Counted from the first letter of the stretch, positions 822 to 27,841 are shown. The stretch is 36,479 bases of DNA from Nitrosomonadales bacterium (GCA_016218445.1 JACREC010000073.1:1-36479), one strand, 5' to 3'. The notes: a model not told the origin generated them from the letters alone. Translations and numbers: made by a program.

Positions 822-867
822 CAATCAGCGGAAGGCGCTACGCTTTGCCACCCTTGATAAATAGTGA

Positions 868-890
868 AAGGGCGTATTGCCGTACGCCCC
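868..890. repeat. Short palindromic repeat upstream of folC
   Basis: GGGCGTA (870-876) and TACGCCC (883-889) form a perfect 7-bp stem around a 6-nt loop. It lies directly upstream of the folC start at 899. It looks like one of several intergenic palindromes scattered in this genome. No T-tract follows, so it is not an obvious terminator. Confidence 0.5.
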
Positions 891-898
891 TACGATAA

Positions 899-2320: not shown

Positions 2321-2338
2321 TTTTTGCGGGAACACGCG

Positions 2339-3402: not shown

Positions 3403-3430
3403 ATTCAAGATTGAATACCGGGACTAAATC

Positions 3431-4951
3431 ATGTGTGGCATTCTAGGCGTCGTTGCGCATTCACCGGCCAACCAGATTTTGTATGACGGCTTGCTGGTGC
3501 TGCAGCACCGCGGGCAGGATGCGGCGGGCATTGCGACCCTGGATGGCAACACCTTCCATATGCACAAGGGCAATGGGCTGGTGCGCGACGTGTTCCGCAC
3601 CCGCAACATGCGCGCGTTGCAGGGCAATGCGGGCATCGCGCATGTGCGCTACCCCACCGCCGGTTCCGCCATCGACCATAACGAGGCGCAGCCGTTCTAT
3701 GTCAATTCTCCGTTCGGCATCGTGCTTGGCCATAACGGCAACCTGACCAACACCAGGCAGTTGCAGGAAGAACTATTTCTGGAAGACCGGCGCCATGTGA
3801 ACACCAATTCCGACTCGGAAGTGCTGCTCAACGTCTTGGCGCACGAATTGCAGGAAAAGGCCAAAAAATATCGCCTCGACGTCCAGACCATTTTTGCCGC
3901 CGTATCCGGCGTGCACCGCCGCTGCCATGGCGCTTACGCAGTGGTGGCGATGATTGCTGGTTATGGCCTGCTGGCGTTCCGCGACAGTTATGGCATCCGC
4001 CCGCTGGTAGTGGGCAGCCATCAAACCGAACAAGGCACGGAATATCTGGTGGCGTCGGAAAGCGTGGCGCTGGATACGCTGGGCTTCAAGCTGCTGCGCG
4101 ACATCGCACCGGGTGAGGCGGTGTTCATTGACTTCGACGGCAACTTTCACAGCCAGCAGTGTGCGAAGAATCCCACGCTCAACCCTTGCATTTTCGAGTA
4201 TGTCTATCTGGCGCGCCCCGATTCGGTGATTGACGGTATTTCGGTGTATGAAACGCGCCTGAATATGGGCGAAAACCTGGCTGACAAGATTGCGCGCATC
4301 TGGCCGCAGGCGGATATTGACGTGGTCATTCCCATTCCGGATTCCAGCCGCCCCAGCGCCTTGCAGCTTGCCAACCGCCTTGGCATCCCGTTCCGCGAGG
4401 GCTTCGTGAAAAACCGCTACATCGGCCGCACCTTCATTATGCCGGGGCAGGAGATGCGCAAGAAATCGGTGCGGCAGAAACTGAATGCAATCGGCATGGA
4501 ATTCAAAAACAAGAACGTGCTGCTGGTGGATGACTCCATCGTGCGCGGCACCACCAGCCGCGAGATCGTGCAGATGGCGCGCGATGCCGGGGCGCGCAAG
4601 GTGTATTTCGCCTCCGCCGCGCCGCCGGTACGCTTTCCCAATGTGTACGGCATTGACATGCCGTCGCGCCGCGAGCTGATCGCCACCGGGCGCAGCGATG
4701 AGGAAATCTGCCGCGAAATCGGTGCGGACAGGCTGGTCTATCAAGACCTGGACAGCCTCAAGGCGGCGGTAAGCAAGGCCAATCCGGCCATACAGTATTT
4801 TGAGGCATCATGCTTCGACGGCGACTACATCACCGGCGACATCACGCCCGAGTATCTTGATGAGATCGAGACGGCGCGCGAAAATGGAAATGCCAACAAG
4901 AGCCATGATGTCAACCAGCTCGATCTCGACCTGGCGACCGGCGAAGGTTGA
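3431..4951 (+). CDS. purF: Amidophosphoribosyltransferase
   Basis: PurF catalyses the first committed step of purine synthesis, PRPP + glutamine to 5-phosphoribosylamine. MCGILGV at the start supplies Cys2, the N-terminal nucleophile of the class II glutaminase domain. The glutaminase domain continues with [11 protein letters not shown] and GHNGNLTN. The phosphoribosyltransferase domain carries the PRPP loop [16 protein letters not shown] at about residues 360-376. At 506 residues the length is typical. A strong hairpin terminator follows at 5041. Confidence 0.97.
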
Positions 4952-5040
4952 CAATATCGGAAGGCAGATGATAACTTGCAACCTGCGCCGATTTGAGGAA
5001 CAGCTTGCGGGCGCGTAATAAATACAGCTAAAGCGCGGGA

Positions 5041-5073
5041 AACCCGGTTTAGCGCAAGCTATCCGGGTTTTTT
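5041..5073 (+). terminator. Rho-independent terminator after purF
   Basis: AACCCGG, then TAGC-GCAA-GCTA, then CCGGGTT form a long stem closed by a GCAA tetraloop and followed by a T6 run. This is a textbook intrinsic terminator. It ends the folC-dedD-cvpA-purF transcript before metZ. Confidence 0.88.
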
Positions 5074-5110
5074 ACATTATCGTAAGCGTCGCGTAGCGAC
5101 TCCTCATCAC

Positions 5111-5134
5111 TCTCTCCCACTTGTGGGGGAGAGA
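5111..5134. repeat. Palindromic repeat between purF and metZ
   Basis: CTCTCCCAC and GTGGGGGAGAG flank a very short loop, followed by a G-rich tail (atggagaggggg). It resembles the G/C-run palindrome found inside folC. Confidence 0.5.
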
Positions 5135-5215
5135 TGGAGAGGGGGAACGGACAAGGTGTCAGCGACGTTAATCATCCGGCGTGGTGCTGACACCATGACC
5201 GTTAAGGGGCAATGC

Positions 5216-6391
5216 ATGTCGGAACCATCCTACCAACCGGAAACACTTGCCGTGCATGCAGGCACGGTGCGCAGCCAGTTCACCGAGCACAGCGAGGCGA
5301 TGTTTCTCACTTCCAGCTTCGTGTTCGACAATGCCGCACAAGCCGCCGCGCGCTTCATCGGCGAAGAGCCGGGCAACATCTACTCGCGCTTCACCAACCC
5401 CACCGTCACCATGTTCGAGGAGCGCCTGGCTGCCATGGAAGGTGCGGAACAGTGCGTGGCGACTGCATCCGGCATGTCGGCGATACTGGCCTGTTGCATG
5501 GGCTTGCTGAAGAGCGGCGACCACATCGTTGCCTCGCGCAGTATTTTCGGCGCGACGGTGAACCTGTTCGGCGGCATCCTGAAAAAATTCGGCGTGGAAA
5601 CGACGTTCGTTTCCGCCACCGATGTCAGCGAATGGAGCGCTGCCGTGCGCCCGCAAACGAAATTATTCTTTCTGGAAACACCGTCCAATCCGCTGACCGA
5701 AGTGTCCGACATCGCGGCGATTGCAGCGGTGGCGAAGAAGTGCGGCGCATTGCTGGCGGTGGACAACTGCTTCTGCACGCCCATCCTGCAACGCCCGCTG
5801 GAACTGGGCGCGGACATCGTGATCCACTCGGCCACCAAGTACCTTGATGGGCAGGGGCGGGTGCTGGGCGGTGCGGTGCTGGGCAGCAAGAAGAATATGG
5901 AAGGCGTGTACCAGTTTCTGCGCACGGCTGGCCCGACCATGAGCGCGTTCAACGCATGGATATTCCTGAAAGGTCTGGAAACGTTGAAAATCCGCATGGA
6001 CGCTCACAGCGCCAATGCGCTGCAACTAGCGCGCTGGCTGGAAGCGCAGCCGAATGTGGCGCGCGTGTATTACCCCGGCCTGGCGTCGCATCCGCAGCAC
6101 CAGTTGGCGATGCAGCAACAAAAGACCGGCGGCGGCATCGTGTCGTTCGAAGTGAAGGGTGGCAGGGAAGCGGCATGGCGTGTGGTTGACAGCACACAAC
6201 TGGTTTCCATTACCGCCAACCTGGGCGACACCAAGACCACGCTTACCCATCCGGCCACCACCACGCATGTGCGCATCACGCCGGAAGCGCGCGCGGCAGC
6301 GGGCATTACCGAAGGCCTGCTGCGCATTGCCATGGGGCTGGAAGCGGTGAGCGACATCCAAGCTGATCTGGCGCGTGGCTTGGGTAACTAA
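5216..6391 (+). CDS. metZ: O-succinylhomoserine sulfhydrylase
   Basis: A PLP enzyme of the Cys/Met metabolism family that makes homocysteine from O-succinylhomoserine and sulfide. Visible features are TLAVHAG near the start, YSRFTNPTVTMFEERLAAME, the PLP lysine in HSATKYLDGQGR (K208), and the C-terminal SLGDTKT-like segment ANLGDTKTTLTHPATTTH. The frame is open further upstream, but the ATG at 5216 follows an AAGGGG ribosome site at the right distance and gives the normal MSEPS start and 391-residue length. Placement after purF is usual in betaproteobacteria. Confidence 0.93.
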   Translation: MSEPSYQPETLAVHAGTVRSQFTEHSEAMFLTSSFVFDNAAQAAARFIGEEPGNIYSRFTNPTVTMFEERLAAMEGAEQCVATASGMSAILACCMGLLKSGDHIVASRSIFGATVNLFGGILKKFGVETTFVSATDVSEWSAAVRPQTKLFFLETPSNPLTEVSDIAAIAAVAKKCGALLAVDNCFCTPILQRPLELGADIVIHSATKYLDGQGRVLGGAVLGSKKNMEGVYQFLRTAGPTMSAFNAWIFLKGLETLKIRMDAHSANALQLARWLEAQPNVARVYYPGLASHPQHQLAMQQQKTGGGIVSFEVKGGREAAWRVVDSTQLVSITANLGDTKTTLTHPATTTHVRITPEARAAAGITEGLLRIAMGLEAVSDIQADLARGLGN

Positions 6392-6412
6392 CATGGAACG
6401 GGAAAACAATTC

Positions 6413-6498
6413 GAGCCACAGAGGTCACAGAGCACACAGAGAACGACGATGGGTTTATGGGGTTGCTTTCCTCTGTGAACTCTGTGTTCTCTGTGGCT
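6413..6498. repeat. CACAGAG/CTCTGTG inverted repeat array
   Basis: The left arm (6413-6443) holds repeated CACAGAG words and the right arm (6468-6498) repeated CTCTGTG words, so the transcript could fold into a long hairpin. This is a widespread type of intergenic repeat. It lies between metZ and pncC and ends just before the pncC ribosome site. Confidence 0.75.
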
Positions 6499-6514
6499 AA
6501 AGGGGGTTCAAAAA

Positions 6515-7006
6515 ATGGACATCCTCGCCGCACAAGTCGGTGGCGCACTCAAAGCGCACGGTCTCAAGCTGGCGACGGCGGAGTCCTGCACCGGCGGCGG
6601 TGTGGCGCATGCCATTACCGATGTGGCGGGCAGCTCAACATGGTTTGAGCGCGGCTTTATTGCTTATTCCAACCAAGCCAAACAACAGATGCTGGGGGTG
6701 AGTGAAGCGACACTCAATCAACACGGCGCGGTGTCTGAGGCGACGGTGCGCGAGATGGTGGCGGGCGCATTGCAACACAGTACCGCACAGGTTGCACTGG
6801 CGGTGAGCGGCATCGCCGGGCCGGATGGCGGCACAGCGGACAAGCCGGTAGGTACGGTATGGTTTGCGTGGGGTATCAAACACGGCGCGGCCCATGCGCG
6901 GCGGCACCAGATTAACGGAAACCGCGCCGAAGTGCGCGCCCAGTCGGTGCATATCGCATTGCAGGGAGTGGTGGACTTGCTGAACCAATTGACCGAAACG
7001 GCCTAA
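6515..7006 (+). CDS. pncC: Nicotinamide-nucleotide amidase (CinA C-terminal domain family)
   Basis: PncC deamidates NMN to nicotinic acid mononucleotide in pyridine-nucleotide recycling. The 163-residue protein is the stand-alone CinA C-terminal domain: TAESCTGGGVAHAITDVAGSS with the catalytic Ser, a central GFIAYSNQAKQQMLGV, and AVSGIAGPDGG. A strong AAAGGGGG ribosome site precedes the ATG. Location immediately upstream of recA is conserved in many proteobacteria. Confidence 0.93.
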   Translation: MDILAAQVGGALKAHGLKLATAESCTGGGVAHAITDVAGSSTWFERGFIAYSNQAKQQMLGVSEATLNQHGAVSEATVREMVAGALQHSTAQVALAVSGIAGPDGGTADKPVGTVWFAWGIKHGAAHARRHQINGNRAEVRAQSVHIALQGVVDLLNQLTETA

Positions 7007-10175: not shown

Positions 10176-10919
10176 ATGGCGAGCATGCCGGCAGCAGCAA
10201 CAAACAGTCAACCGACTTCACCGGCTGACAAGAAGCGCGACGCAGCGAAGCAAAACCTGATTACGATTTCTATCATGGGCAAGGCCTATGAGGTGCCGGC
10301 CGATGCAACCATCATGGGCGCCATCGAATATGCCGGGCACCAGATCATCCGCGGCGCCGGTTGCCGCGAGGGCTATTGCGGCGCCTGCGCCACCATCTAC
10401 CGCCTGCCCGGCGACTACAAGATACGCACCGGCCTCGCCTGCATGACTCTGGTCGAGGAGGGCATGTCGCTGACCCAGATACCCTACGTTCCGGGCGAAA
10501 AGGCGATCTACGACATCGAGGAACTCAAGCCCAACGTCAGCGCCATCGAGCAGATGTACCCGTCGGTTTTCCGTTGCGTCGCCTGCAATACCTGCACCAG
10601 GTCTTGTCCGCAGGGGCTTCAGGTCATGGATTACGTCCAGGCCGCCAAACGGGGTGACATTGCGACAGTGATGGACCTGTCCTTCGACTGTGTTGTCTGC
10701 GGGCTGTGCATGCTGCGTTGCCCCGCCGAGATCACGCAACCCCTGATGGCTATCATGGCGAAGCGTTTGTATGGCCGCTATCTGCGCAAGGACAGCCCGG
10801 AACTGGCGGTGCGGGTCAAGGCCGTGGAGGAGGGTGCCTATGATGATGAATATGCCGAATTGATGGCGATGAGCCGCGAGGCCTTGTCGAAACGTTACTA
10901 CGCCCGCGATTCGGAATAA
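10176..10919 (+). CDS. frdB: Fumarate reductase / succinate dehydrogenase iron-sulfur subunit
   Basis: A 247-residue electron-transfer subunit. The N-terminal plant-ferredoxin-type domain holds a [2Fe-2S] motif CREGYCGAC with a later Cys (C63, C68, C71, C89). The C-terminal domain has two complete four-Cys sets, CVACNTCTRSCP (C134-C144) and CVVCGLCMLRCP (C172-C182), so two [4Fe-4S] clusters are likely, unlike the [4Fe-4S] plus [3Fe-4S] of classical SdhB. The frame is open from 10038, but that lies upstream of the predicted transcription start; the ATG at 10176 follows AAGGT and gives a family-like start. It would pass electrons to FrdA. No membrane-anchor gene is nearby. Confidence 0.85.
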   Translation: MASMPAAATNSQPTSPADKKRDAAKQNLITISIMGKAYEVPADATIMGAIEYAGHQIIRGAGCREGYCGACATIYRLPGDYKIRTGLACMTLVEEGMSLTQIPYVPGEKAIYDIEELKPNVSAIEQMYPSVFRCVACNTCTRSCPQGLQVMDYVQAAKRGDIATVMDLSFDCVVCGLCMLRCPAEITQPLMAIMAKRLYGRYLRKDSPELAVRVKAVEEGAYDDEYAELMAMSREALSKRYYARDSE

Positions 10920-10948
10920 CCAGCACACGGAATTAGAGAGGATTCAAG

Positions 10949-12724
10949 ATGTATCCAGAGTATATGGCGGAGTCGCTCCGCAAAGTGGCTCAAACTCGCC
11001 CCAGACGTTTGGAACTGGCCCGGAAGCCGGACCCCGTCTACCCGCCCATGAACGCGGAGGAGCGTCGTGCCGTGCTGGAGGGCTTCCACCCCGATTTCGA
11101 GCCCAGTGCCCGCCGTACGGTGCGCGTCGGCCCCAATCGGGACGAGTCGTTGACCACCGAGGTGGCCGACCTGCTGGAGTCCCATTCCTGGCTGCGCAGC
11201 GATCAGGTGAATCTTGACAGCCCGGATTTCGAGACTGACCTCCTGATCATCGGCGGCGGCGGCGCAGGCTGCAATGCTGCCCTGGTTGCCATGAAGGAAC
11301 ACGGAATGCGCTCGATAATCGCCACCAAGCTGCGCATGGGCGATTCCAACAGCATGATGTCACAGGGCGGCATGCAAGCCGCCGTGTCACGCACCGACTC
11401 GCCGACCCGGCACTATCTGGATGCCATCGGCGGCGGCCATTTCGAGAACAAGCCGGAGCTGGTCAGGGCGCTTACCGAGGACGGTCCCGGAGTGGTCAAG
11501 TGGCTGGAAGACCTGGGTGTGGTGTGGGACAAGGAAGAAGACGGCTCGATGAAGGTCATGCACGGCGGCGGTACCTCGCGCAAGCGCATGCTGTCATGCC
11601 GCGACTACACCGGCGCGATGATCATGCGCACGCTGATGGACGAGGTGCGCAACCACCCCGACATGATTGAGGTGAAGGAGTTCATGCCGGCCGTGGAGTT
11701 GATCATGGACAACAAGGGCCGTTGCGCCGGCGCGATTCTCTACAGCATGGACAGCGAGGAGTTCTTCACGGTCAAGGCCAAGTCCACCGTGATCGCCACC
11801 GGTGGCTATGGCCGCCTGCACATCCGCGGTTTCGATACTACCAACCACTATGGGGCGACCGGTGACGGGCTGGTGATGGCTTATCGCGCCGGTGCCAAGC
11901 TGATGTACATGGACTCGGTCCAGTACCACCCGACGGGTGTTTCGTTTCCCGAACAGATCGCCGGTTTCCTGGTCACCGAGGCGATCCGCGGCGCGGGCGG
12001 CCAGCCGCTGAACAAGGAAGGCGAACTGTTCGTCTTTCCGCGCGAGCCGCGCGACGTCGAGGCAGCAGCCATCATCCGCGAATGCGCGCAGAACGGCGGC
12101 GGCATCCCGACGCCTTCCGGGCGCGTCGGCGTGTGGCTGGATTCGCCGCTGATCGACATGCTGCACGGCGAAGGCTACACCGACAAGCACTTCCCGGCCA
12201 TGTATCGCCAGTTCATCCGCTATGGCATCGACATCGCCAAGCTGCCGATGCTGATCTACCCGTCGCTGCACTACCAGAACGGCGGCATCGAAATCAATGA
12301 GCGTTGCGAGACAGACATCCCCGGCCTCTACGTGGCTGGCGAGGCCAGCGGCGGCCTGCACGGCCGCAACCGGCTGATGGGCAATTCGGTGCTCGACTAC
12401 AACGTGTTCGGGCGGAGAGCCGGCCGGTATGCCGGCGAGTACGCCAGGACGGTCAAACTCGGCAAGCTTAGCCTGGCTCATCTCGATGCCTACGAGAAGG
12501 AGCTGGCGGATGCCGGCGTGCAAACCAGTCTGGTGACTCCGACCCTGTTGCCGTCTTATGCGCCCGAGGATGTCAAAAAGCGCCAGTTGCTGCGCGGCGA
12601 CAACACGCTGCCCGGCTCTTCGGTGCTGCAAAACCGGCTGCATGATGAAGCCCCTAGCCATTCGACTAGGCCGTCAATAAACGACAGCCAAGCCGCTGGT
12701 TATGATGAAAGGTCCGGCGCCTGA
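10949..12724 (+). CDS. frdA: Fumarate reductase flavoprotein subunit, soluble type
   Basis: This catalytic subunit interconverts fumarate and succinate; the context favours fumarate reduction. The first ~95 residues are an N-terminal extension, followed by the FAD-binding LLIIGGGGAGCNAAL. The active-site segment QYHPTG is present, as are TEAIRGAGG with the catalytic Arg and the dinucleotide-fold end GLYVAGEASGG. At the position where SdhA/FrdA carry the His that bonds FAD covalently (RSHTVAAQGG) this protein has DSNSMMSQGG, with Asn at residue 134, so FAD should be non-covalent. Only ~90 residues follow NSVLDYNVFGR, so the usual C-terminal helical domain is short or missing. The last ~22 residues derive from a REP-like repeat. 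Confidence 0.86.
   Translation: MYPEYMAESLRKVAQTRPRRLELARKPDPVYPPMNAEERRAVLEGFHPDFEPSARRTVRVGPNRDESLTTEVADLLESHSWLRSDQVNLDSPDFETDLLIIGGGGAGCNAALVAMKEHGMRSIIATKLRMGDSNSMMSQGGMQAAVSRTDSPTRHYLDAIGGGHFENKPELVRALTEDGPGVVKWLEDLGVVWDKEEDGSMKVMHGGGTSRKRMLSCRDYTGAMIMRTLMDEVRNHPDMIEVKEFMPAVELIMDNKGRCAGAILYSMDSEEFFTVKAKSTVIATGGYGRLHIRGFDTTNHYGATGDGLVMAYRAGAKLMYMDSVQYHPTGVSFPEQIAGFLVTEAIRGAGGQPLNKEGELFVFPREPRDVEAAAIIRECAQNGGGIPTPSGRVGVWLDSPLIDMLHGEGYTDKHFPAMYRQFIRYGIDIAKLPMLIYPSLHYQNGGIEINERCETDIPGLYVAGEASGGLHGRNRLMGNSVLDYNVFGRRAGRYAGEYARTVKLGKLSLAHLDAYEKELADAGVQTSLVTPTLLPSYAPEDVKKRQLLRGDNTLPGSSVLQNRLHDEAPSHSTRPSINDSQAAGYDERSGA
12655..12705. repeat. REP-like unit forming the 3-prime end of frdA
   Basis: TAGCCATTCGACTAGG, a small GTC...GAC hairpin, then AGCCAAGCCGCTGGTTAT. 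This matches the unit repeated between recA and recX. It is read through in the frdA frame and encodes its final residues. Confidence 0.7.
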
Positions 12725-12733
12725 GGCGCCGGA
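12713..12733 (+). other. Perfect hairpin with the frdA stop codon in its loop
   Basis: TCCGGCGCC (12713-12721) and GGCGCCGGA (12725-12733) form a 9-bp perfect stem whose three-base loop is the frdA TGA stop. No T-tract follows. It lies ten bases before the next start codon and could slow ribosomes or protect the mRNA 3-prime end. Confidence 0.65.
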
Positions 12734-12742
12734 GTCAGACCG

Positions 12743-13276
12743 ATGCCCCATATTGATGACAGAGTGATCGAACTGGCTCGTACCGCGCTCAGTTTCGAGT
12801 TCGGCGAGGAGCACTTCTACCGCCATGCCGCCGAGATGACCCGGAACCCCCGAGGCAAAGCCATGTTCCTGCGTCTGGCTGAGGAAGAGCCGGGGCACAT
12901 GCATGATATGCACAGGTTGTTCATCGCCATCATCGGCAAGGATGAGTGGCAACGTCTTGCCGCCGAAGAAGCGGCGAATGCTTCCCCGTCGAAAGTGGTC
13001 GCCGAGATGGAAGCTGCCGTTGCCCATCGCGGTATGATAGCAGTCGCCGACGACACCCAGGCATTGCGCATGGCCATGGAGCTGGAACGGCGGGTCATCC
13101 ACCTGCTTAAGGATATGGCTGACCACACCCATGACCCGGCCATTATCGAACTGATAGGCAAGATGATCCTGGAGGAATGCTCCCAATACGATGCCCTTCA
13201 GGCACAGCTGGACAGCGTGCTGAACGTCGGGTTATGGCTGGACGTCCCCGAGTTCCGCATGGACGGGAAATATTAA
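12743..13276 (+). CDS. Rubrerythrin/ferritin-like diiron protein
   Basis: A 177-residue all-helical protein. Two helix pairs carry the diiron ligand pattern: EFGEEHFY plus EEEPGHM in the first half, and ELERRVIH plus EECSQYD in the second. The second EExxH is altered to EExxQ. There is no rubredoxin domain at the C-terminus, so it is an erythrin-like ferritin fold rather than full rubrerythrin. It lies between frdA and hdrC and abuts hdrC, so it is co-transcribed. A role in removing peroxide or oxygen to protect the oxygen-sensitive FeS enzymes of the operon is inferred from family and context. Confidence 0.7.
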   Translation: MPHIDDRVIELARTALSFEFGEEHFYRHAAEMTRNPRGKAMFLRLAEEEPGHMHDMHRLFIAIIGKDEWQRLAAEEAANASPSKVVAEMEAAVAHRGMIAVADDTQALRMAMELERRVIHLLKDMADHTHDPAIIELIGKMILEECSQYDALQAQLDSVLNVGLWLDVPEFRMDGKY

Positions 13277-13696
13277 ATGGACACTACCTTGCGTATAACT
13301 TCGGCCCGTGCCGGAAGCGACTTTGTCGCCAGGATCGAAAAGGTCAGCGGCCAGAAGTTGCTGGCCTGTTACCAGTGCGGCAAGTGCTCTGCCGGCTGCC
13401 CGATGGCGGCCTACATGGATGTGCTGCCCAACCAGATCATCCGCCTGGCCCAACTGGGAATGCAGGAACAATTGCTGGCAGCGCGCTCCATCTGGATGTG
13501 TGTGTCCTGCCTGACCTGCAATTCGCGTTGCCCGAAAGACATAAAAATCGCCGAGGTCATCGAATCGCTGCGTATGACAGCTCTGCGCGACGGCCAGCGT
13601 AACGACCACCTTAATATCATGGAATTGTCTCCCGAGGCGCGGGCTGTGTTACCGCCTATCGCCACCATCAGCGCCATGCGTAAACTGACCTCCTGA
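13277..13696 (+). CDS. hdrC: Heterodisulfide reductase subunit C-like ferredoxin protein
   Basis: A 139-residue protein with two [4Fe-4S] motifs, CYQCGKCSAGCP and CVSCLTCNSRCP, in the spacing of HdrC. It should carry electrons between HdrA and HdrB. It starts directly after the preceding stop and overlaps hdrB by one base. Because frdBA lie just upstream, HdrC may link the Hdr core to fumarate reductase (inference). Confidence 0.85.
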   Translation: MDTTLRITSARAGSDFVARIEKVSGQKLLACYQCGKCSAGCPMAAYMDVLPNQIIRLAQLGMQEQLLAARSIWMCVSCLTCNSRCPKDIKIAEVIESLRMTALRDGQRNDHLNIMELSPEARAVLPPIATISAMRKLTS

Positions 13697-14595
13697 TGGG
13701 AAATGAGAACAAACCGATGAAGCTCGTTTATTACCCCGGCTGCACGCTGAAGAACCAGGCGACTAACTTCGATGTGTCCACGGTTTCGTCCATGGCGAAA
13801 CTGGACGTGGAGGTCGAGGAGATGGCTCAATGGAATTGCTGCGGCACGGTGCATGCGCTGGACTCCGACAACGTCATGAACCGGGTGGCGCCGATAACCA
13901 ACCTGATTCGCGTCAAGGAAGCCAATGCCAGTGAATTCATGACTTCCTGCGCGATGTGTTACAACACGCTCAAGCGCGCCAACATTGACGTGAAGCAGCG
14001 CGCCGATGCGCTGGAAACCATCAACGACTTCCTGTCCCTCGAAAAAACTAAATATGAAGGTGATGTTGATGTCCTTCATCTGCTCGAGTACCTGCGTGAC
14101 CGTGTCGGTTTCGACAAACTGGCCGAGAGGGTGACAAAACCGCTCAAAGGTCTGCGCGTGGCCTGCTACTACGGTTGTCTGCTGGTGCGCCCGAAGGAGG
14201 TTGCCTTCGACGATGTCGAGAATCCGATGGTCATGGAAAATCTGGTTCGCGCCCTCGGCGCCACGCCAGTGGATTTTTCATACAAGACCGAATGCTGCGG
14301 CGCCTACCAGACGGTTGACAAGCCGGAGGTCATTGCCGGCCGCACCGACAAGATCATGGGCTCGGCGCACGAGGAGCAGGCCGATCTGGTGGTGGTAAGC
14401 TGCCCGCTGTGTGCCTTCAACCTTGACTTCCGGCAGGATGACGCGAAGCGCCTCAATCCGGACTTCCACAATATGCCGGTGCTCTACTTCACCCAGTTGA
14501 TGGCGCTGGCGTTCGGTTGCGACGAGTCGGCGCTGCGTTTCGATCTCCAGCATATCGATCCGCTGCCAGCCTTGGCGGCTCGCGGACTGGGCTAA
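13696..14595 (+). CDS. hdrB: Heterodisulfide reductase subunit B-like protein (two CCG domains)
   Basis: A 299-residue protein with two copies of the cysteine-rich CCG domain. The first runs YPGC ... WNCCGT ... SCAMCYN and the second CYYGC ... TECCGAY ... SCPLCAFN. In methanogen HdrB these two motifs bind the non-cubane [4Fe-4S] clusters that cleave the heterodisulfide. Here the physiological acceptor is unknown. The methanogen thiol:fumarate reductase subunit TfrB is an FrdB-HdrB fusion, so adjacency to frdBA suggests electron exchange with fumarate reductase. The ATG at 13696 overlaps the hdrC stop; 13717 is an alternative. Confidence 0.87.
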   Translation: MGNENKPMKLVYYPGCTLKNQATNFDVSTVSSMAKLDVEVEEMAQWNCCGTVHALDSDNVMNRVAPITNLIRVKEANASEFMTSCAMCYNTLKRANIDVKQRADALETINDFLSLEKTKYEGDVDVLHLLEYLRDRVGFDKLAERVTKPLKGLRVACYYGCLLVRPKEVAFDDVENPMVMENLVRALGATPVDFSYKTECCGAYQTVDKPEVIAGRTDKIMGSAHEEQADLVVVSCPLCAFNLDFRQDDAKRLNPDFHNMPVLYFTQLMALAFGCDESALRFDLQHIDPLPALAARGLG

Positions 14596-14605: not shown

Positions 14606-14869
14606 ATGTTTTTCAACGACCTCAAACAGACTCGCGGCAAGATCTACATCAGCAATGATTGGTGCAAGGGATGCGGCTTCTGCGTGCAATTTTGCCCCAA
14701 AGGGGTGCTGGATACGTCTCCCGAGTACAACGCCAAGGGCTATCATCCGCCCTATGTGAAAAATCCTGATGCCTGCCACGATTGCATGTTTTGCCAGATG
14801 ATCTGCCCGGAGTTTTCCATCTACGTGATAAAGGAAGAAGCAACCAATAAAGGAGAAACAAATAAGTGA
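14606..14869 (+). CDS. korD: 2-oxoglutarate:ferredoxin oxidoreductase delta-type ferredoxin
   Basis: An 87-residue ferredoxin with two [4Fe-4S] motifs: CKGCGFCVQFCP and CHDCMFCQMICP. Small proteins of this type are the delta subunit of 2-oxoacid:ferredoxin oxidoreductases, carrying electrons to or from the TPP site. AAGGAGG precedes the start, and the stop overlaps the korA GTG by four bases, so the stoichiometry is likely coupled. Confidence 0.88.
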   Translation: MFFNDLKQTRGKIYISNDWCKGCGFCVQFCPKGVLDTSPEYNAKGYHPPYVKNPDACHDCMFCQMICPEFSIYVIKEEATNKGETNK

Positions 14870-16032
14870 AAACCGTCACCGCAGATCCCAAAGGGGTCGA
14901 CTCCGGCCCGCATTTCATGGATGGCGACCATGCGCTCGCCGAAGGCGCGCTGGCAGCAGGCTGCCGGTTCTTTGCCGGCTATCCCATCACGCCCTCCACA
15001 GAAACTGCGGAGCGTTTCGCCGAGCGGGCGCCGGAGGTGGGAGCGCTGTTCATCCAGATGGAGGACGAGCTCGCCTCCATCGCCGCCCTGATCGGCGCGG
15101 CATGGGCTGGACAAAAATGCATGACCGTTACCTGCGGCCCCGGCTTTTCACTGATGGTGGAAAACCTCGGCCTGGCTGCCATGACCGAAACCCCGATGGT
15201 GATCGCCAACGTGCAGCGCGGCGGACCGTCCACCGGTCTGCCCACGCTGACCGCCCAGCAGGACATGATGCAGGCAAAATGGGGGCCGCATGGCGACAAC
15301 GCCATCATCGCCCTGTCGCCGGACAGCCCGCAGGAATGTTTTGACCTCACCGTCGAGGCCTTCAATCTGTCGGAATATTACCGGGTGCCGGTCATCATCC
15401 TGACCGACGAAACCGTCGGCCACATGCACGAAAAGGTGGTCATCCCGCCAGCCGACCAGATCAAGGTGGTACCGCGCAACAACTACAGCGGCCCCAAGGA
15501 GGACTGCCGTCCCTACAAGTTCGACAGCCAGGGCGGCCATCCCATGGTGCGTGCGGGCGATGGGTACAACTTCCACATCACCGGCCTGACTCACAATGAG
15601 AAGGGGTATCCGGTCATGACCGTTGAGCAGAGCAAAAAGGTCGTGACTCACTTGATGGAAAAGATCAACGGCAATGCCGACGACATCATCCGCCTCGACG
15701 AGGATCAGGTCGACGGCGCCGATGTGGTGGTGGTGTCGTATGGCATCACTTCCCGGATCGCCGTCAAGGCCATTCAGGATGCGCGCAAGGAAGGTATCAA
15801 GGTTGGCTCGTTGCGCCTGATCACCATCTGGCCATTCTGCGAGAAACGCATTCGTGAAATATCCGCCAAGGTTAAGGCCATCGTGGTACCCGAGATCAAC
15901 TATGGTCAGATGGTACTCGAAGTGGAACGTAGCGCCGCCGGCCGCTGCAAGGTAATCAGTGTCAATCACTGTGGCGGTGCGGTGCATGATCCGCAGGTAA
16001 TCCTGGACGCCATCAGAAAGGCAATCCAATGA
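14866..16032 (+). CDS. korA: 2-oxoglutarate:ferredoxin oxidoreductase alpha subunit
   Basis: KOR carboxylates succinyl-CoA to 2-oxoglutarate with reduced ferredoxin in the reductive TCA direction. This 388-residue subunit has the pyrimidine-binding domain start GCRFFAGYPITPSTE, MEDELASIAALIGAAWAG, and the TCGPGFSLM motif, followed by RGGPSTGLPT typical of KorA rather than pyruvate enzymes. It begins with GTG at 14866 after AGGAG. It overlaps korB by four bases. 2-oxoglutarate as substrate is inferred from subunit layout and neighbours. Confidence 0.88.
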   Translation: MKTVTADPKGVDSGPHFMDGDHALAEGALAAGCRFFAGYPITPSTETAERFAERAPEVGALFIQMEDELASIAALIGAAWAGQKCMTVTCGPGFSLMVENLGLAAMTETPMVIANVQRGGPSTGLPTLTAQQDMMQAKWGPHGDNAIIALSPDSPQECFDLTVEAFNLSEYYRVPVIILTDETVGHMHEKVVIPPADQIKVVPRNNYSGPKEDCRPYKFDSQGGHPMVRAGDGYNFHITGLTHNEKGYPVMTVEQSKKVVTHLMEKINGNADDIIRLDEDQVDGADVVVVSYGITSRIAVKAIQDARKEGIKVGSLRLITIWPFCEKRIREISAKVKAIVVPEINYGQMVLEVERSAAGRCKVISVNHCGGAVHDPQVILDAIRKAIQ

Positions 16033-17321
16033 GCACTGAAATCGGAAAATTCAAGGCAGGCAGTCCCATGTCCGACACCCTGCGCATGGACCGGATGCCG
16101 CATATCTGGTGTCCCGGCTGCGGCATCGGCTCCGAGGTGAATTCCTTTGCAGATGCCGTCAAGCGTAGCGGCATCGACCCCAAGAAGCTGGTCGTGGTGT
16201 CGGGCATCGGCTGCACCGGACGTGTCGCGGGCTATGTCAACTTCGATTCGATCCACACCACGCACGGCCGTGCCATTCCCGTGGCCACCGGCGTCAAGCT
16301 GGCCAATCCCGAACTGACGGTGGTGGTGTTCAGCGGCGAGGGCGACCTGGCCGGTATCGGCGGCAACCACCTGATCCATGCCGCACGGCGCAACATGGAC
16401 CTGGTGGTCATCTGCAACAACAACTTCACCTATGGCATGACCGGCGGCCAGGTGACGCCGACCACGCCCAACTCCGCCGTGGCCTCGACTACGCCCTACG
16501 GCAACTACGAATATCCGTTCAGCCTGCCTTTCCTGGTCGATGCTGCCGGTGCCACCTACATCGCACGCTGGACCTCGATGCATTCGCGCAACGTTACCCA
16601 GTCGATCGAGGAAGCGCTGTTGCGCAAGGGTTTCTCCTTCATCGAGATCATCTCGCCCTGCCCGACGCTCTACCTGCGCCGCAACCGCCTCGGCGACGGC
16701 GTCGACCAGCTGCAGAATTATCAGGATAACTCGATTCTCAAGCATGGCTGCGATACCCGTGAGACGGCTATCGACTACCAGGGCAAGATCGTCATCGGCA
16801 AGTTCGTCGAAAAGAACAAGCCTACGTATCTGGAAGGCGTCGACAAGTGCTGCGTCAAGCTGGTGGGGGACGATTATCAGCTTTACGGCAAGACCATTCC
16901 GGAACGTGAGGCCGAGGAAAAAGCCGAGAAGGAAAGGATCGCCGCTCGCCGGGCTGCGATGGCAGCAGCGGAAGCGCAGGAACAGGCAGTAGCCGCAAAA
17001 CCCCGGAAAACCTCCGCGCCTGCGGTAAAGAAGGCTCCCGCCATGGCTGCGAAAACGAAGTTTCAGAGCAAGGTAATGCCTGCGAAGCAGGCGTTAGCTG
17101 GAACTAAAAAGGCTCCGGCAAAAGCTGCTGCTGCACCCAAGGCAGCGAAGAAGGTTGCGGCAAAAGCCAAGGCCAAGCCCGTGAAGAAAGCCGCGACGAA
17201 AGCCGTTAAAAAGGCCTCGGCCAAGAAGGTCGCGCCAAAGGCTCCGGCCAAGGCAGCAAAAAAGGCCGCATCCAAGGGAACCGTCAAGACCAAGGCCGCG
17301 CCTAAAAAGACCCGCAAGTAG
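16029..17321 (+). CDS. korB: 2-oxoglutarate:ferredoxin oxidoreductase beta subunit with H1-like Lys/Ala tail
   Basis: Residues 1 to ~290 are a standard TPP-binding beta subunit: HIWCPGCGIG, SGIGCTGR, the TPP/Mg motif GEGDLAGIGGNH and NNNFTYGMTGGQ. The family normally ends near here (~280-300 residues). In this protein a further ~139 residues follow (nt ~16902-17321): first a charged helix (EREAEEKAEKERIAARR), then a Lys/Ala/Pro-rich low-complexity tail with repeated KKA, KAPAKAA and KKAATK words, like histone H1 or bacterial AlgP/HctB-type proteins. The tail is in frame with no stop. Its function is unknown; it could bind nucleic acid or polyphosphate, or recruit partners. Overlaps with korA and tight spacing to korC support one operon. 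Confidence 0.88.
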   Translation: MSTEIGKFKAGSPMSDTLRMDRMPHIWCPGCGIGSEVNSFADAVKRSGIDPKKLVVVSGIGCTGRVAGYVNFDSIHTTHGRAIPVATGVKLANPELTVVVFSGEGDLAGIGGNHLIHAARRNMDLVVICNNNFTYGMTGGQVTPTTPNSAVASTTPYGNYEYPFSLPFLVDAAGATYIARWTSMHSRNVTQSIEEALLRKGFSFIEIISPCPTLYLRRNRLGDGVDQLQNYQDNSILKHGCDTRETAIDYQGKIVIGKFVEKNKPTYLEGVDKCCVKLVGDDYQLYGKTIPEREAEEKAEKERIAARRAAMAAAEAQEQAVAAKPRKTSAPAVKKAPAMAAKTKFQSKVMPAKQALAGTKKAPAKAAAAPKAAKKVAAKAKAKPVKKAATKAVKKASAKKVAPKAPAKAAKKAASKGTVKTKAAPKKTRK

Positions 17322-17332
17322 GAATCGAGCGC

Positions 17333-17899
17333 ATGAGCACACAAGAGATCAGATTTTCGGGATTCGGCGGCCAGGGCATCATTCGCTGCGCCCTGATCAC
17401 GGGCAAGGCGCTGGCCCTGTACGACGACAAGTTCGCCACGATGACCCAGAGTTTCGGCCCGGAGGCGCGCGGCAGCGCCTGTGCCGCGCAGCTCGTGGTT
17501 TCCGACGAGCGTGTCCTGTATCCGTATATCACACAACCCGGAATTCTCCTGGCGCTGTCCCAGGAGGCTTACGACAAGTATTACAGTGAGCTGCCCAAGG
17601 GGGGAACGCTGATCGTCGAGCAGGAACTGGTGAAACTGCGCGGCGAGCATCCGGATCTCAGATTGATGCGGGTGCCGGCGACCCGCTATGCCGAAGAACT
17701 GGGCAATCGCCTGTTCACCAATCTCGTGGCGCTCGGATTTTTCACCGCGGTCACCAACGTGGTCACCGCCGATGCCATGAAGAAGGCTCTGCCCGGTCTG
17801 GTTCCCGAACGTTTCCTGAAGATCAACATCAAGGCATTCGACAAGGGCTATGAACACGGCCTCCAAATGATGAGCCAAAACGGAGAAGCCGCGTCATGA
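17333..17899 (+). CDS. korC: 2-oxoglutarate:ferredoxin oxidoreductase gamma subunit
   Basis: A 188-residue gamma domain with the hallmark FSGFGGQGIIRCALITGKAL at the start and SFGPEARGSACAAQLVVSD downstream. It completes the KOR enzyme together with korD, korA and korB. The stop overlaps the hdrA start by four bases, which ties KOR expression directly to HdrA. Confidence 0.88.
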   Translation: MSTQEIRFSGFGGQGIIRCALITGKALALYDDKFATMTQSFGPEARGSACAAQLVVSDERVLYPYITQPGILLALSQEAYDKYYSELPKGGTLIVEQELVKLRGEHPDLRLMRVPATRYAEELGNRLFTNLVALGFFTAVTNVVTADAMKKALPGLVPERFLKINIKAFDKGYEHGLQMMSQNGEAAS

Positions 17900-19848
17900 G
17901 CAAGAAGCGCACCGGCGTTTTTGTCTGCCATTGCGGCACCAACATCGCCGCCACCGTCGATGTGGCGAAGGTGGCCAAGGAGATGGCCGGAGAAGACACC
18001 GTTGCTTTCACCAAGGAATACGTCTACATGTGCTCGGAACCGGGCCAGGAGTCGGTAGTCCAGGCGATCAAGGACAACAAGCTGGACAGCGTCGTTGTCA
18101 CCTGCTGTTCACCGAATTTGCATGAGAAGACCTTCCGCGATAATGCCACGCGGGCCGGCATCAATAATTTCACCTGCGAGATCGCCAATATCCGCGAGCA
18201 GTGCAGTTGGGTTCACAATGACAAAGCCAAGGGAACCGAGAAGGCAATCAAGATTTCGCGCAGCGTCGTGCGGCGGGTTAACCGCAACCAGCCCCTGGAT
18301 GCAATTGCCGTCAATGTCACGCGGCGGGCAATGGTGATAGGCGGGGGTGTCGCCGGTATCCAGGCTGCGCTCGACATCGCGAATGCCGGCGTGGAGGTGG
18401 TGCTGGTCGAGAAACAGGCTACCATCGGCGGCCGCATGCTTCAGCTCTCCGAGACTTTTCCCACACTGGATTGCTCGCAGTGCGTCCTGTCGCCCAAGAT
18501 GGTCGAGGTGAAGCGCCACCCCAAGATCAAACTGATGACCTACAGCGAAGTGCAGGAGCTCACGGGCTCCGTGGGCAACTTCCAGGTCAAAGCCCTCAAG
18601 AAACCCACCTTTGTGGATCCAGACAAGTGCAAGCTTTGCGACGAATGTACCGCAGTCTGCCCGGTAGTGGTGCCGAACGAATACGAACTTAATCTGACCG
18701 CCCGGCGCGCCATCTATATTCCTTATGCACAGGCTATTCCGGCCAGCTTCACGCTCGACGAGAGTGTCTGTCTGGGCTTGAATCCCATCGTCTGCGGCAA
18801 GTGCAAGGATGTCTGCGAGGCCGATGCCATCAACTACGATATGCGGCCCGAGACGGTGACCGAGGATGTGGGCGCCATCGTGGTGGCGACCGGCTTCGAT
18901 CTCTACGGCCAGGAGAATATGGGCGAACTCGGCGGCGGCAAGATCGAGGATGTGCTTGACGGCCTCCAGTTCGAGCGCCTGTGCTCGGCCTCGGGCGCGA
19001 CCAAGGGCCATATACTCCGGCCTTCCGATCATACAGAGCCTAAAAATGTGGTCTTTATCCAGTGCGTGGGATCGCGCGATCCAGCGAAGCATTGCGCTTA
19101 CTGCTCCAAGATCTGCTGCATGTACACCGCCAAGCATGCCCAGCTTTACAAACACCACGTACCGGACGGTCGCGCCTACGTGTTCTACATTGATATCCGC
19201 TCCGGCGGCAAGGGCTACGAGGAGTTCGTGCAGCGCACCATGGAGGACAACGATACCCTCTACCTGCGCGGCCGCGTCTCCAGGCTCTACCGGCATAACG
19301 GCAAGGTTCGCGTGCTGGGCACCGACACTCTGTCCGGCCAGAACGTGGAGATTGACGCCGACATGGTAGTGCTGGCGCTCGCCATGGTGCCCTCGAAGGG
19401 AACCACAGAGATTGCCAAGGTGCTCAAGATCGGCCGCGACAAGGACGGCTTCCTGGCCGAGGCTCACCCCAAACTGAAACCGGTCGAGAGCGTCACTGCC
19501 GGTATCTACCTGGCGGGTGCCGCCCAGGCTCCCAAGGATATCCCGGAGACCGTCGCCCAGGCCGGCGCGGCAGCCGCCAAGGTGATTGCGTTGCTGTCGC
19601 AGGCAACCCTCAGCCGCCCGCCGCTGATAGCCAGGGTACGCCGTTCCCACTGCACCGGCTGCGGCATGTGCGTCGATGCCTGCCCTTTCATAGCGATCCG
19701 GCTGGAGAATGGAAAAGCTGTGGTGAACGAGGCGCTTTGCGAGGGTTGCGGCAGTTGCTCGGCCACCTGCCTGCGCGCCGCCATAGACGTCAAGAATGTC
19801 ACGCAGCTGCAGATCTACGAAATGATCGAAGCCTGCCTGGCTGTATGA
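17896..19848 (+). CDS. hdrA: Heterodisulfide reductase subunit A-like flavoprotein
   Basis: HdrA is the FAD subunit that performs flavin-based electron bifurcation in methanogens and many anaerobes. This 650-residue protein has the N-terminal Cys domain (GVFVCHCGTNIA, CCSPNLHEKTF), the FAD fold VIGGGVAGIQAAL with EKQATIGGRM and LDCSQCVLSPKM, an inserted ferredoxin domain (CKLCDECTAVCP ... CGKCKDVC), the CVGSRDP ... YCSKICCMYTAKHA segment, and two C-terminal [4Fe-4S] sites (CTGCGMCVDACP, CEGCGSCSATC). All expected domains are present. It lies between korC and mvhD/flxD, so reduced ferredoxin made here could go straight to KOR. Confidence 0.9.
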   Translation: MSKKRTGVFVCHCGTNIAATVDVAKVAKEMAGEDTVAFTKEYVYMCSEPGQESVVQAIKDNKLDSVVVTCCSPNLHEKTFRDNATRAGINNFTCEIANIREQCSWVHNDKAKGTEKAIKISRSVVRRVNRNQPLDAIAVNVTRRAMVIGGGVAGIQAALDIANAGVEVVLVEKQATIGGRMLQLSETFPTLDCSQCVLSPKMVEVKRHPKIKLMTYSEVQELTGSVGNFQVKALKKPTFVDPDKCKLCDECTAVCPVVVPNEYELNLTARRAIYIPYAQAIPASFTLDESVCLGLNPIVCGKCKDVCEADAINYDMRPETVTEDVGAIVVATGFDLYGQENMGELGGGKIEDVLDGLQFERLCSASGATKGHILRPSDHTEPKNVVFIQCVGSRDPAKHCAYCSKICCMYTAKHAQLYKHHVPDGRAYVFYIDIRSGGKGYEEFVQRTMEDNDTLYLRGRVSRLYRHNGKVRVLGTDTLSGQNVEIDADMVVLALAMVPSKGTTEIAKVLKIGRDKDGFLAEAHPKLKPVESVTAGIYLAGAAQAPKDIPETVAQAGAAAAKVIALLSQATLSRPPLIARVRRSHCTGCGMCVDACPFIAIRLENGKAVVNEALCEGCGSCSATCLRAAIDVKNVTQLQIYEMIEACLAV

Positions 19849-19862: not shown

Positions 19863-20297
19863 ATGTCTGAACAACAAGTTTACGAACCCAGGGTCGTCGC
19901 CTTTCTGTGCAAGTGGTGCTCGTCGGCGGGCAGCGATCTGGCTGGCGTTTCGCGCATCCAGTACCCGGCCAACGCGACACCGATCACCGTTCCATGCACC
20001 GGCGCCATATCGCCGATGTACATCATGTCGGCCTTCAACAAGGGGGCAGACGGTGTGCTGGTGTCGGGCTGCCATATCGGCGACTGCCACTACATCGAGG
20101 GCAACTATCTGGCACGGCGCAAGATGCAGTTGATCATGGAACTGCTCGAATTCATCGGCGTCGAGCCGAACCGGTTCCGCATGTCATGGGTCTCGGCCGC
20201 CGAAGGCGCCAAATTTGCCCAGGTCATCACGGACTTCGTCAATGACCTCAAGCCTCTCGGGCCGCAGGAAAAGCTGAAGAAGGCGGAGCACTCATGA
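19863..20297 (+). CDS. MvhD/FlxD-like [2Fe-2S] electron-transfer subunit
   Basis: A 144-residue protein of the MvhD family. FLCKWCSSAGSDLAG, VPCTG and GCHIGDCHYIEGN provide the conserved Cys ligands. MvhD-type proteins dock to HdrA and bring in electrons from a hydrogenase, formate dehydrogenase or Flx module. No hydrogenase genes are here; the following genes encode a NAD(P)H-type module instead, so FlxD is the better label. It overlaps the next gene by four bases. Confidence 0.87.
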   Translation: MSEQQVYEPRVVAFLCKWCSSAGSDLAGVSRIQYPANATPITVPCTGAISPMYIMSAFNKGADGVLVSGCHIGDCHYIEGNYLARRKMQLIMELLEFIGVEPNRFRMSWVSAAEGAKFAQVITDFVNDLKPLGPQEKLKKAEHS

Positions 20298-21325
20298 TCA
20301 ACGTACAGGACATCCGCGACACCGCGAGGGATCTGCTCGCGAAAGGCGAGGTCCGCGCTGTCATCGGCTACCGGCGTGGTTCGCGCGGGATGCTTGCCGA
20401 GCCCGCTTTCATCACCAGCCCGGAGCAGGCTGACGAACTTGTTTGGGATCCCACCTGCTTCCACAACCTGTCCCTGTATCTGGTCCATGACCGCAAATTT
20501 CTGGATCATATTCGCAAGAATCCGGGGGCACCTGTCGCCATCATCGCCAAGGGATGCGACGCGCGCTCTATTGTCGTGTTGCTGCAGGAGCACTACTTCA
20601 AACGCGAGGATGTCTACATTATCGGCGTGTCCTGCGAGGGCACCGGGGTGCTGGATGAGCGCAAGCTGGCTCCCCATTTGAACGGAGCCCAAGCCTCAAA
20701 CGCCGCTTTCGACGGCGACGACTTCGTGTTCACCACCGCCGAAGGCGAGAAGCGGTTGCAAGCCCGCGAGGTGATGGCGGATCGCTGCCTGGAATGCCGC
20801 ATACCCTTTCCCAAGGAGCACAACGCGGTGTTCGGCGAGGACAAGGCAGGGCGCCAAATGGAGGCGCCGTTCGCCGCACTCACCCGTTTCGAAGAGCAGG
20901 GAAGCGGTGAGCGCTGGGACTTCTGGAGCCACCATTTTGATCGCTGCATCCGTTGCTTCGCGTGCCGCTCGGTGTGCCCGATGTGCTACTGTGATGAGTG
21001 CGTGGTGGACAGCATCACCTTCCCGGTAACAACGGAAACCACGGCAGAGGATAAAGCCAATCGCGTACGCTGGATCGAGCGTTCGGCGGTGCGTTCTGAA
21101 AACATCACCTATCTCATGACGCGCGCCATGCACCTTGCTGGCCGCTGCACCGATTGCGGCGAGTGCGAGCGTGCTTGCCCGGTCAATGTCCCGATACGGT
21201 TGCTCAACAATAAAATGGAGCGGGAAGCCCGCGAACAGTTCGGCTTCGAGCCTGGAGCGAGCATTGGAGGGCCGTCGCTGGTAGCCTCTTTCCTCGACAG
21301 CGACCCCGGCGATTTCATCAGGTGA
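20294..21325 (+). CDS. FrhB/FdhB-like iron-sulfur subunit of the Flx module
   Basis: This 343-residue protein has an N-terminal FrhB-like region with IIAKGCDARSIVVLLQE and VSCEGTGV. A Cys pair follows (RCLECR), then a Cys-rich set CIRCFACRSVCPMCYCDEC and a [4Fe-4S] motif CTDCGECERACP. Such proteins are found as FlxB or FlxC components of HdrABC-FlxABCD clusters, relaying electrons between the FAD/NAD subunit and the MvhD-like subunit; which letter applies I cannot say. The TGA stop overlaps the first base of the MITE-like element at 21325. Confidence 0.75.
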   Translation: MINVQDIRDTARDLLAKGEVRAVIGYRRGSRGMLAEPAFITSPEQADELVWDPTCFHNLSLYLVHDRKFLDHIRKNPGAPVAIIAKGCDARSIVVLLQEHYFKREDVYIIGVSCEGTGVLDERKLAPHLNGAQASNAAFDGDDFVFTTAEGEKRLQAREVMADRCLECRIPFPKEHNAVFGEDKAGRQMEAPFAALTRFEEQGSGERWDFWSHHFDRCIRCFACRSVCPMCYCDECVVDSITFPVTTETTAEDKANRVRWIERSAVRSENITYLMTRAMHLAGRCTDCGECERACPVNVPIRLLNNKMEREAREQFGFEPGASIGGPSLVASFLDSDPGDFIR

Positions 21326-24858: not shown

Positions 24859-24863
24859 TTTCT

Positions 24864-24937: not shown

Positions 24938-24978
24938 ATAAATTTGACAAGCTAATGAATTAAGCAAAGGTGATAAGG

Positions 24979-27810: not shown

Positions 27811-27841
27811 ACTGATTTTAATTACGCAATTTGGAGAGCAT

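Follow-up and report, generated by a model that had tools for sequence, protein, structure and literature searches.

In Hydrogenobacter, the soluble NADH-dependent fumarate reductase consists of five subunits, FrdABCDE. Closer to the present case are the reductive tricarboxylic acid (TCA) cycle clusters of tubeworm symbionts and Thioflavicoccus mobilis, which contain aclAB, korABCD, tfrAB, rbr and flxABCD-hdrABC (PMC6315080; Endoriftia, PMC11636981). For this cluster type, FlxABCD-HdrABC was proposed to feed 2-oxoglutarate:ferredoxin oxidoreductase (OGOR, hereafter KOR) and the tfrAB fumarate reductase (Rubin-Blum et al. 2019, PMC6315080). In Pseudoclostridium thermosuccinogenes, fumarate hydratase, Flx-Hdr and fumarate reductase share one operon, and fumarate reduction was proposed to drive ferredoxin reduction (PMC7282089). 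Ca. Celaenobacter (Cloacimonadota) carries a thiol:fumarate reductase (TFR)-OGOR-Mvh-Hdr cluster (PMC8542988), and FlxABCD-HdrABC of Desulfovibrio vulgaris is cited as linked to ethanol metabolism (Ramos et al. 2015, as cited in PMC7282089). Here we analyze a related cluster, in which the fumarate reductase genes frdBA precede the heterodisulfide reductase genes hdrCB, in a stretch of 36,479 nucleotides (hereafter the window) from a Nitrosomonadales bacterium (GCA_016218445.1, JACREC010000073.1). The window is the entire contig C37 of a metagenome-assembled genome (MAG) of 1.92 Mb, 85% complete. The host, described as a groundwater-type iron bacterium, most likely belongs to the Gallionellaceae.

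For organisms that lack coenzymes M and B, there is no agreement on the high-potential acceptor of Hdr complexes. We propose that FrdBA works as a soluble fumarate reductase without a membrane anchor and is supplied with high-potential electrons by a bifurcating HdrABC-FlxABCD complex, with fumarate as the acceptor, and we put the probability of this reading at roughly two in three. An earlier note on this DNA had suggested such a link between FrdAB and HdrBC. The linkage that it noticed was confirmed, and the interpretation appears plausible from the sequences compared, which also widen it; the conserved linkage, the lack of an anchor and the exergonic bifurcation to fumarate all favor it, whereas family cut-offs were missed. 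The proposal is not new in essence, since it has been published for the same cluster type and its relatives (PMC6315080, PMC11636981, PMC7282089, PMC8542988).

By the published description, the cluster of the tubeworm symbionts and T. mobilis agrees with the window in its gene set, in the placement of korABCD between hdrBC and hdrA, and in the electron path that was proposed for it. The present host, however, belongs to the Gallionellaceae/Nitrosomonadales, and its genome also encodes RuBisCO. The P. thermosuccinogenes operon, likewise compared by description, also brings Flx-Hdr and fumarate reductase together, but in a fermentative succinate producer. Ca. Celaenobacter has the same FrdBA-Hdr-KOR core as two of the Cloacimonadota loci compared below (L095 and L102), while its electron input is a hydrogenase in place of Flx and no aclBA lies inside its cluster. 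The input and bifurcating modules are shared with D. vulgaris; in the window they are joined with KOR and FrdBA.

Organization of the gene cluster

From position 10176, frdB, frdA, a rubrerythrin-like gene, hdrC, hdrB, korD, korA, korB, korC, hdrA and flpD follow one another on the plus strand. The run continues in the same direction with a flxC-like gene, flxB, flxA, aclB, aclA and the genes of aconitase, isocitrate dehydrogenase, SucC, SucD and fumarase. The intergenic gaps from frdB to hdrB are 29, 18, 0 and -1 bp, and that between hdrB and korD is 10 bp. Since these gaps are small and all the genes lie on the same strand, one transcription unit is likely; frdB would be its head, because 558 bp lie between it and the vapC-like gene upstream. 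The view that frdBA heads the same operon as hdrCB, with the genes and coordinates first assigned to them, therefore holds, except that the rubrerythrin-like gene between frdA and hdrC had been overlooked. The cluster contains a complete hdrABC and flxABCD set (hdrC, hdrB, hdrA, flpD, flxC-like, flxB and flxA), in which hdrA and flpD/mvhD are two parts of one HdrA2-type protein, as indicated by their split match to NF040770.

Conservation of the linkage

In a panel of 399 genomes drawn from the host's order, FrdA of the window type (at least 79% identity) and HdrB of the window type (at least 70%) occurred in exactly the same five genomes, the next HdrB being 37% identical. The gene order of the cluster recurs in the four other genomes of the order, one of which, placed in the same family (G154), keeps it from frdB through idh. 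The co-occurrence of frdBA and hdrCB is far beyond chance.

We then compared 64 loci with this FrdA subfamily, taken from one genome per species across phyla. Their FrdA identities are 49-98%. Identities from the gene-order comparisons are approximate, as the queries used there were short by a few residues (six in FrdA). The proteobacterial hosts comprise many Gallionellaceae, Nitrosomonadales and Hydrogenophilales MAGs, Rhodocyclaceae, Rhodospirillales and one Thiotrichales MAG. The other hosts are Aminicenantes and other Acidobacteriota, one Rokubacteria, Coatesbacteria, Cloacimonadota, an 'Armatimonadetes' MAG, Heimdallarchaeota and Lokiarchaeota. Within the flanking stretches compared, hdr genes accompany frdA in 55 of the 64 loci and KOR genes in 45. 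In eight of the nine loci without hdr, the contig breaks off within 4 kb toward the frdB side, on which hdr would be expected, and the remaining one (L085) is interrupted by a scaffold gap.

The arrangement differs among phyla. It is frdBA-rbr-hdrCB-kor-hdrA-flx in Proteobacteria and hdrCB-kor-hdrA-flx-frdBA in Aminicenantes, frdBA being last also in Coatesbacteria. In Cloacimonadota, the order kor-hdrCB-hdrA-flpD-frdBA is found beside genes resembling those of Mvh-type [NiFe]-hydrogenase, and in Asgard archaea frdBA follows hdrCB with either Flx or hydrogenase. Two Cloacimonadota loci (L095 and L102) and one Lokiarchaeota locus (L104) have no flx, and carry genes that read, by translation, as Mvh-type [NiFe]-hydrogenase. 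Since both the arrangement and the input module vary, what stays constant is HdrABC together with FrdBA, as a rule accompanied by KOR; the electron input is exchangeable. This cross-phylum linkage is the strongest evidence that FrdBA may work together with Hdr, although it speaks for linkage and not for contact. Its conservation from Proteobacteria to Asgard archaea is the new evidence added here; the distribution in Gallionellaceae, the Asgard FrdBA-Hdr-KOR members and the ligand analysis given below were not found in the literature searched, the coverage of which was partial.

A wider claim can be put forward tentatively, and we consider it somewhat doubtful in its full extent. HdrABC-FrdBA would be a general, ancient, fumarate-terminated bifurcating core of bacteria and Asgard archaea, with a swappable input (Flx or Mvh-like hydrogenase). 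Joined by KOR, it would form one soluble unit that sets fumarate reduction and reductive carboxylation at a 1:1 ratio, and FrdB would dock on HdrB or HdrC in place of a disulfide.

In two loci (L099 and L098), no KOR gene was found in the stretch compared, and glycolate-oxidase-like and HdrA-like/FlpD genes adjoin frdBA, hinting at additional electron-input modules.

Cofactor ligands, catalytic residues and family assignment

FrdB has 12 Cys residues, invariant in 60 of 60 sequences, which are arranged as a [2Fe-2S] domain followed by two four-Cys motifs. In SdhB/FrdB of quinone-linked enzymes, the [3Fe-4S] cluster is ligated by a three-Cys pattern. The second motif of FrdB in the window, C172-x2-C175-x2-C178-x3-C182, all four Cys of which are invariant in the same sequences, has one Cys more, and a quinone-side 3Fe-4S cluster is therefore not expected. 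FrdB is thus predicted to bind one 2Fe-2S and two 4Fe-4S clusters and no 3Fe-4S cluster. The Pfam scan found no CCG domain in it.

The AlphaFold (AF2) model of FrdB, with a mean predicted local distance difference test score (pLDDT) of 81, was compared domain by domain using VIA-align (50 rows). For residues 118-204, the closest matches were HdrC chains from Hdr complexes (Z about 10-12), at best with Z 11.6 and 2.1 A over 87 residues, and the ferredoxin domain of carbon monoxide dehydrogenase was nearly as good (Z 11.1). Residues 27-103 resembled the [2Fe-2S] domain of NuoG and [FeFe]-hydrogenase-type proteins (Z about 8). Whole-chain Foldseek matches were weak, none reaching an E value of 0.001 or better. 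None of the 50 VIA-align rows is a canonical FrdB/SdhB chain, but this says nothing about a difference in fold.

FrdA carries an N-terminal extension of about 94 residues, and gave no match to Succ_DH_flav_C in the Pfam scan. Its predicted fold matches that of E. coli FrdA (E 4e-29). The fumarate-site residues H327, T343, E344, R347, R368, H441 and R475 align with those of E. coli FrdA and are invariant in 36 homologues. The His residue for covalent FAD attachment (His44 of E. coli FrdA) is replaced by Asn134, which is also invariant in these homologues. The FrdA reading frame ends (12660-12724) about 20 residues past the point where most close relatives stop. Compared with canonical succinate:quinone and quinol:fumarate reductases, the cluster thus keeps the fumarate-site residues, and lacks an anchor gene, the 3Fe-4S pattern and the covalent-FAD His. 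The Cys ligands of the Hdr subunits are equally conserved: the 10 CCG Cys of HdrB are invariant in 47 of 47 sequences and the 8 Cys of HdrC in 48 of 48. The best matches of HdrB among solved structures are Hdr complexes.

By NCBIfam score, the family closest to FrdA is the methanogen TfrAB, in which TfrB joins an FrdB-like half and a CCG half. TfrA is the best NCBIfam model of FrdA, at 341.9 bits, under the cut-off of 718 (NF004900). On the TfrB model (NF004898, 488 positions), FrdB covers positions 19-183, HdrC 128-232 and HdrB 258-478; FrdB scored 30.6 bits and HdrB 38.7 bits, and the cut-off of 385 bits was not reached. Since FrdB and HdrB together span the model, the suggested 'split TfrB' is a reasonable description, with FrdB on the N-terminal half and HdrB on the CCG half, but HdrC is an extra subunit. 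We do not claim membership in thiol:fumarate reductase, because no protein of the cluster passes the TfrA or TfrB cut-off. Unlike its methanogen counterpart, FrdB here has no CCG half, and the thiols of coenzymes M and B are not expected in this bacterium. No fused TfrB-type chain was seen in the loci of this FrdA subfamily, in a search that was not exhaustive. L-aspartate oxidase was also considered for FrdA and rejected: the TIGR00551 score was 284.8 bits against a cut-off of 452.75, and a separate NadB-like open reading frame (514 aa) is present on contig C75.

Membrane anchors and succinate dehydrogenase genes

No membrane-spanning product was found by a Kyte-Doolittle scan among those of frdB to hdrB and hdrA to flxA, where the highest 19-residue mean, 1.87, fell on the Fe-S segment of FrdB. 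The expectation that frdBA has no anchor gene beside it is therefore borne out. We also looked for an anchor elsewhere that could pair with FrdAB. The only Sdh_cyt matches of the genome adjoin a canonical sdhA on contig C2, where sdhC-sdhD-sdhA (331-3279; L031) are followed by a tRNA-like stretch and rnr. No sdhB was found anywhere in this MAG assembly. Three genomes with the same cluster (G154, G182 and G067) have an intact sdhB beside sdhA, so that its absence here seems to be either an artefact of the MAG or a loss confined to this genome. Five other cluster-bearing genomes (G409-G413), namely three Cloacimonadota, one Acidobacteria MAG and one chromosome-level Coatesbacteria MAG, gave no match to canonical SdhB or to Sdh_cyt. 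In these organisms, FrdBA must therefore work without such an anchor.

Proposed mechanism and energetics

We infer that the proteins form a complex, that electrons pass from HdrB/HdrC to FrdB, that bifurcation takes place and that the reactions run in the reductive direction. NAD(P)H would reduce FlxA, and the electrons would be passed through FlxBC and FlpD to the flavin of HdrA. The low-potential branch would lead from HdrA to ferredoxin, or to the ferredoxin-type KorD, and then to KOR, which would carboxylate succinyl-CoA. The high-potential branch would run through HdrC and HdrB to FrdB and finally to FrdA, where fumarate would be reduced to succinate. The overall input would be 2 NADH, fumarate and 2 ferredoxin (Fd). 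SucCD would turn the succinate from FrdA into the substrate of KOR, so that the two reductive TCA steps would run at about 1:1; sucCD, which links them, lies within the cluster. Since each turn of the reductive TCA cycle requires fumarate reduction once and KOR once, a bifurcation between the two fits the stoichiometry.

With standard potentials of -320 mV for NAD and +33 mV for fumarate, dG0' for 2 NADH, fumarate and 2 oxidised ferredoxin was calculated to be -33 to -49 kJ/mol (ferredoxin at -500 to -420 mV). For a heterodisulfide-like acceptor at -140 mV, the value is about 0 to -10 kJ/mol (ferredoxin at -500 to -450 mV). If the reading is true, the reverse TCA cycle has a built-in NAD(P)H drive for the 2-oxoglutarate synthase step, and fumarate reduction becomes a site of energy coupling without a membrane.

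Alternative interpretations

Several facts weigh against fumarate as the acceptor. The ligands of both noncubane clusters of HdrB are intact, as for a disulfide substrate, and the genome contains three DsrC-family matches. In the Riftia symbiont, the cluster was co-expressed except for tfrAB (2024 study, PMC11636981). The distance correlations among the cluster genes are high in a mirror-tree analysis (0.87-0.98), but any operon passed on as a unit would be expected to give such values, and they do not discriminate contact from joint inheritance. The gene absences used here rest on MAGs, most of which are incomplete. Finally, a second frdBA pair without hdr, which the earlier note had missed, is found in the same genome.

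This second pair lies on contig C7 (5501-11648; L030) in the order korAC-korB-frdB2-frdA2-nuoF-like. The same order from korAC through nuoF occurs in three other genomes (G080, G365 and G358), and korB-frdB2-frdA2-nuoF was found in the shorter stretch examined in two more (G035 and G062). FrdA2 is 44% identical to FrdA and, in the alignment, has the same fumarate-site motifs and Asn at the FAD-His position. Both FrdBA pairs of the genome sit beside KOR genes. The gene pntB lies about 4 kb upstream of the second cluster. Judging from its genes, the second cluster possibly encodes a soluble enzyme that reduces fumarate with NADH and is linked to a KOR of two subunits. A Rhodopseudomonas paper considered as a parallel for a KOR/NuoF-type enzyme deals with AadN, an Nfn homologue, and has no bearing on it. 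Since FrdBA2 adjoins nuoF without hdr, the association of FrdBA with Hdr does not hold in all contexts.

The alternative that survives best is that HdrBC-HdrA-Flx bifurcates to a disulfide or trisulfide, for example that of DsrC, or only makes ferredoxin for KOR, FrdBA being a separate enzyme that merely shares the operon. The intact CCG ligands, the deviating expression of tfrAB and the three DsrC matches would all suit it; of the other carriers tested from Proteobacteria and Aminicenantes, all but one likewise have at least one DsrC match. However, no DsrC was detected in 8 of 23 cluster-bearing genomes, among them those tested from Cloacimonadota and Asgard archaea and one Acidobacteria genome. 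DsrC is therefore probably not the acceptor of this Hdr type in general, although it could still serve as such in the window's host. A separate FrdBA, moreover, is at odds with a linkage that survives changes in gene order and a swap of the input module. We consider this interpretation unlikely.

It is worth considering that FrdBA might be fed directly and without bifurcation, as the Hydrogenobacter enzyme is, by a soluble module that takes electrons from NAD(P)H; this would be FlxAB in the window and NuoF in the second cluster. The position of the second FrdBA directly before a NuoF-like gene indicates that an FrdBA module evidently can work with a plain NADH module. But the frdBA-hdr-kor clusters of L095, L102 and L104 contain hydrogenase and no flx, and the proteobacterial frdBA adjoins hdrCB instead of flxA. 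For the window, direct feeding seems still less probable than a disulfide acceptor, and fumarate as the acceptor of the bifurcating complex remains the preferred reading.

Type-E enzymes are also known to have an all-Cys 4Fe-4S centre in place of the 3Fe-4S cluster. FrdBA with HdrB, acting as SdhE, could then be a membrane-associated type-E quinol:fumarate reductase like MfrABE. The scores of HdrB are indeed nearly equal for the HdrB model (TIGR03288, 174.9 bits) and the MfrE/SdhE model (168.8 bits), both being under their cut-offs. This idea is nevertheless very improbable, as FrdA reached only 206.4 bits against the MfrA cut-off of 1100 and HdrB fell far short of the MfrE/SdhE cut-off of 500, a full HdrA/HdrC set stands beside HdrB, the structure matches are Hdr complexes and there is no hydrophobic anchor segment.

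That frdBA is the dicarboxylate module of the genome's own succinate dehydrogenase, pairing with the SdhCD of contig C2 while sdhB is missing from the assembly, would account for the sdhC-sdhD-sdhA run without sdhB, but is scarcely credible given the intact sdhB of the three relatives, the absence of the 3Fe-4S pattern in FrdB and the retention of FrdBA where Sdh_cyt is absent.

Gene coordinates and neighbouring genes

The coordinates of the cluster are listed in Table 1; the names of korA, korB and korC were assigned from translations and synteny. Upstream of the run lie housekeeping genes (purF, recA and others) and then a vapBC-like pair, to which the vapC-like gene belongs.

Table 1. Genes of the frdBA-hdr-kor cluster and their positions in the window.
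Gene	Position	Strand	Features
frdB	10176-10919	+	247 aa; Pfam Fer2_4 and Fer4; N-terminal [2Fe-2S] domain, HdrC-like dicluster half
frdA	10949-12724	+	591 aa; fumarate-reductase flavoprotein; FAD_binding_2 at 97-481
rubrerythrin-like gene	12743-13276	+	PF02915; between frdA and hdrC
hdrC	13277-13696	+	two 4Fe-4S motifs; TIGR03290, 84 bits
hdrB	13696-14595	+	PF02754 twice; two intact CCG (noncubane cluster) motifs
korD, korA, korB, korC	14606-17899	+	four-subunit 2-oxoglutarate:ferredoxin oxidoreductase; korD Fer4 by Pfam
hdrA	17896-19848	+	PF02662; NF040770, residues 5-648 on model positions 1-641
flpD/mvhD	19863-20297	+	NF040770, residues 3-136 on model positions 642-775
flxC-like	20294-21325	+	electron-input module
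flxB	ends 22633	+	AsrA/HydB-like; electron-input module
flxA	22623-23447	+	AsrB/HydG-like FAD/NAD(P) protein; electron-input module
aclB, aclA, aconitase, isocitrate dehydrogenase, sucC, sucD, fumarase	23578-36040	+	other reductive TCA enzymes; named by translation

The large subunit of RuBisCO is encoded on another contig of the same MAG (C46, 12931-13827; 474-aa open frame), and the Calvin cycle and the reductive TCA cycle therefore both appear to be encoded. A Gallionellaceae pangenome paper mentions RuBisCO, whereas citrate lyase and the reverse TCA cycle were not found in it under the terms used. With reverse-TCA clusters present in many Gallionellaceae/Nitrosomonadales MAGs, the picture of carbon metabolism in this family, usually described as RuBisCO-based CO2 fixation, would need revision. 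Contig C46 also carries a pair of QmoA/QmoB-like genes accompanied by a separate HdrC and HdrB (997-6619; L032). This HdrB, the other one of the genome, is 26% identical to that of the window; the set likely serves sulfur metabolism.

KorB (korB, 16029-17321) ends in a Lys/Ala-rich, histone-H1-like tail of about 100-140 residues in most Gallionellaceae/Nitrosomonadales copies examined. The tail is shorter in one Rhodospirillales copy, and absent in the Hydrogenophilales copy of L061 and in the Thiotrichales, Aminicenantes and Asgard copies examined. The rubrerythrin-like gene occupies the same place between frdA and hdrC in most proteobacterial clusters, with no match in the other phyla among the 64 loci. 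Its product perhaps provides oxygen protection for the Fe-S enzymes of the cluster.

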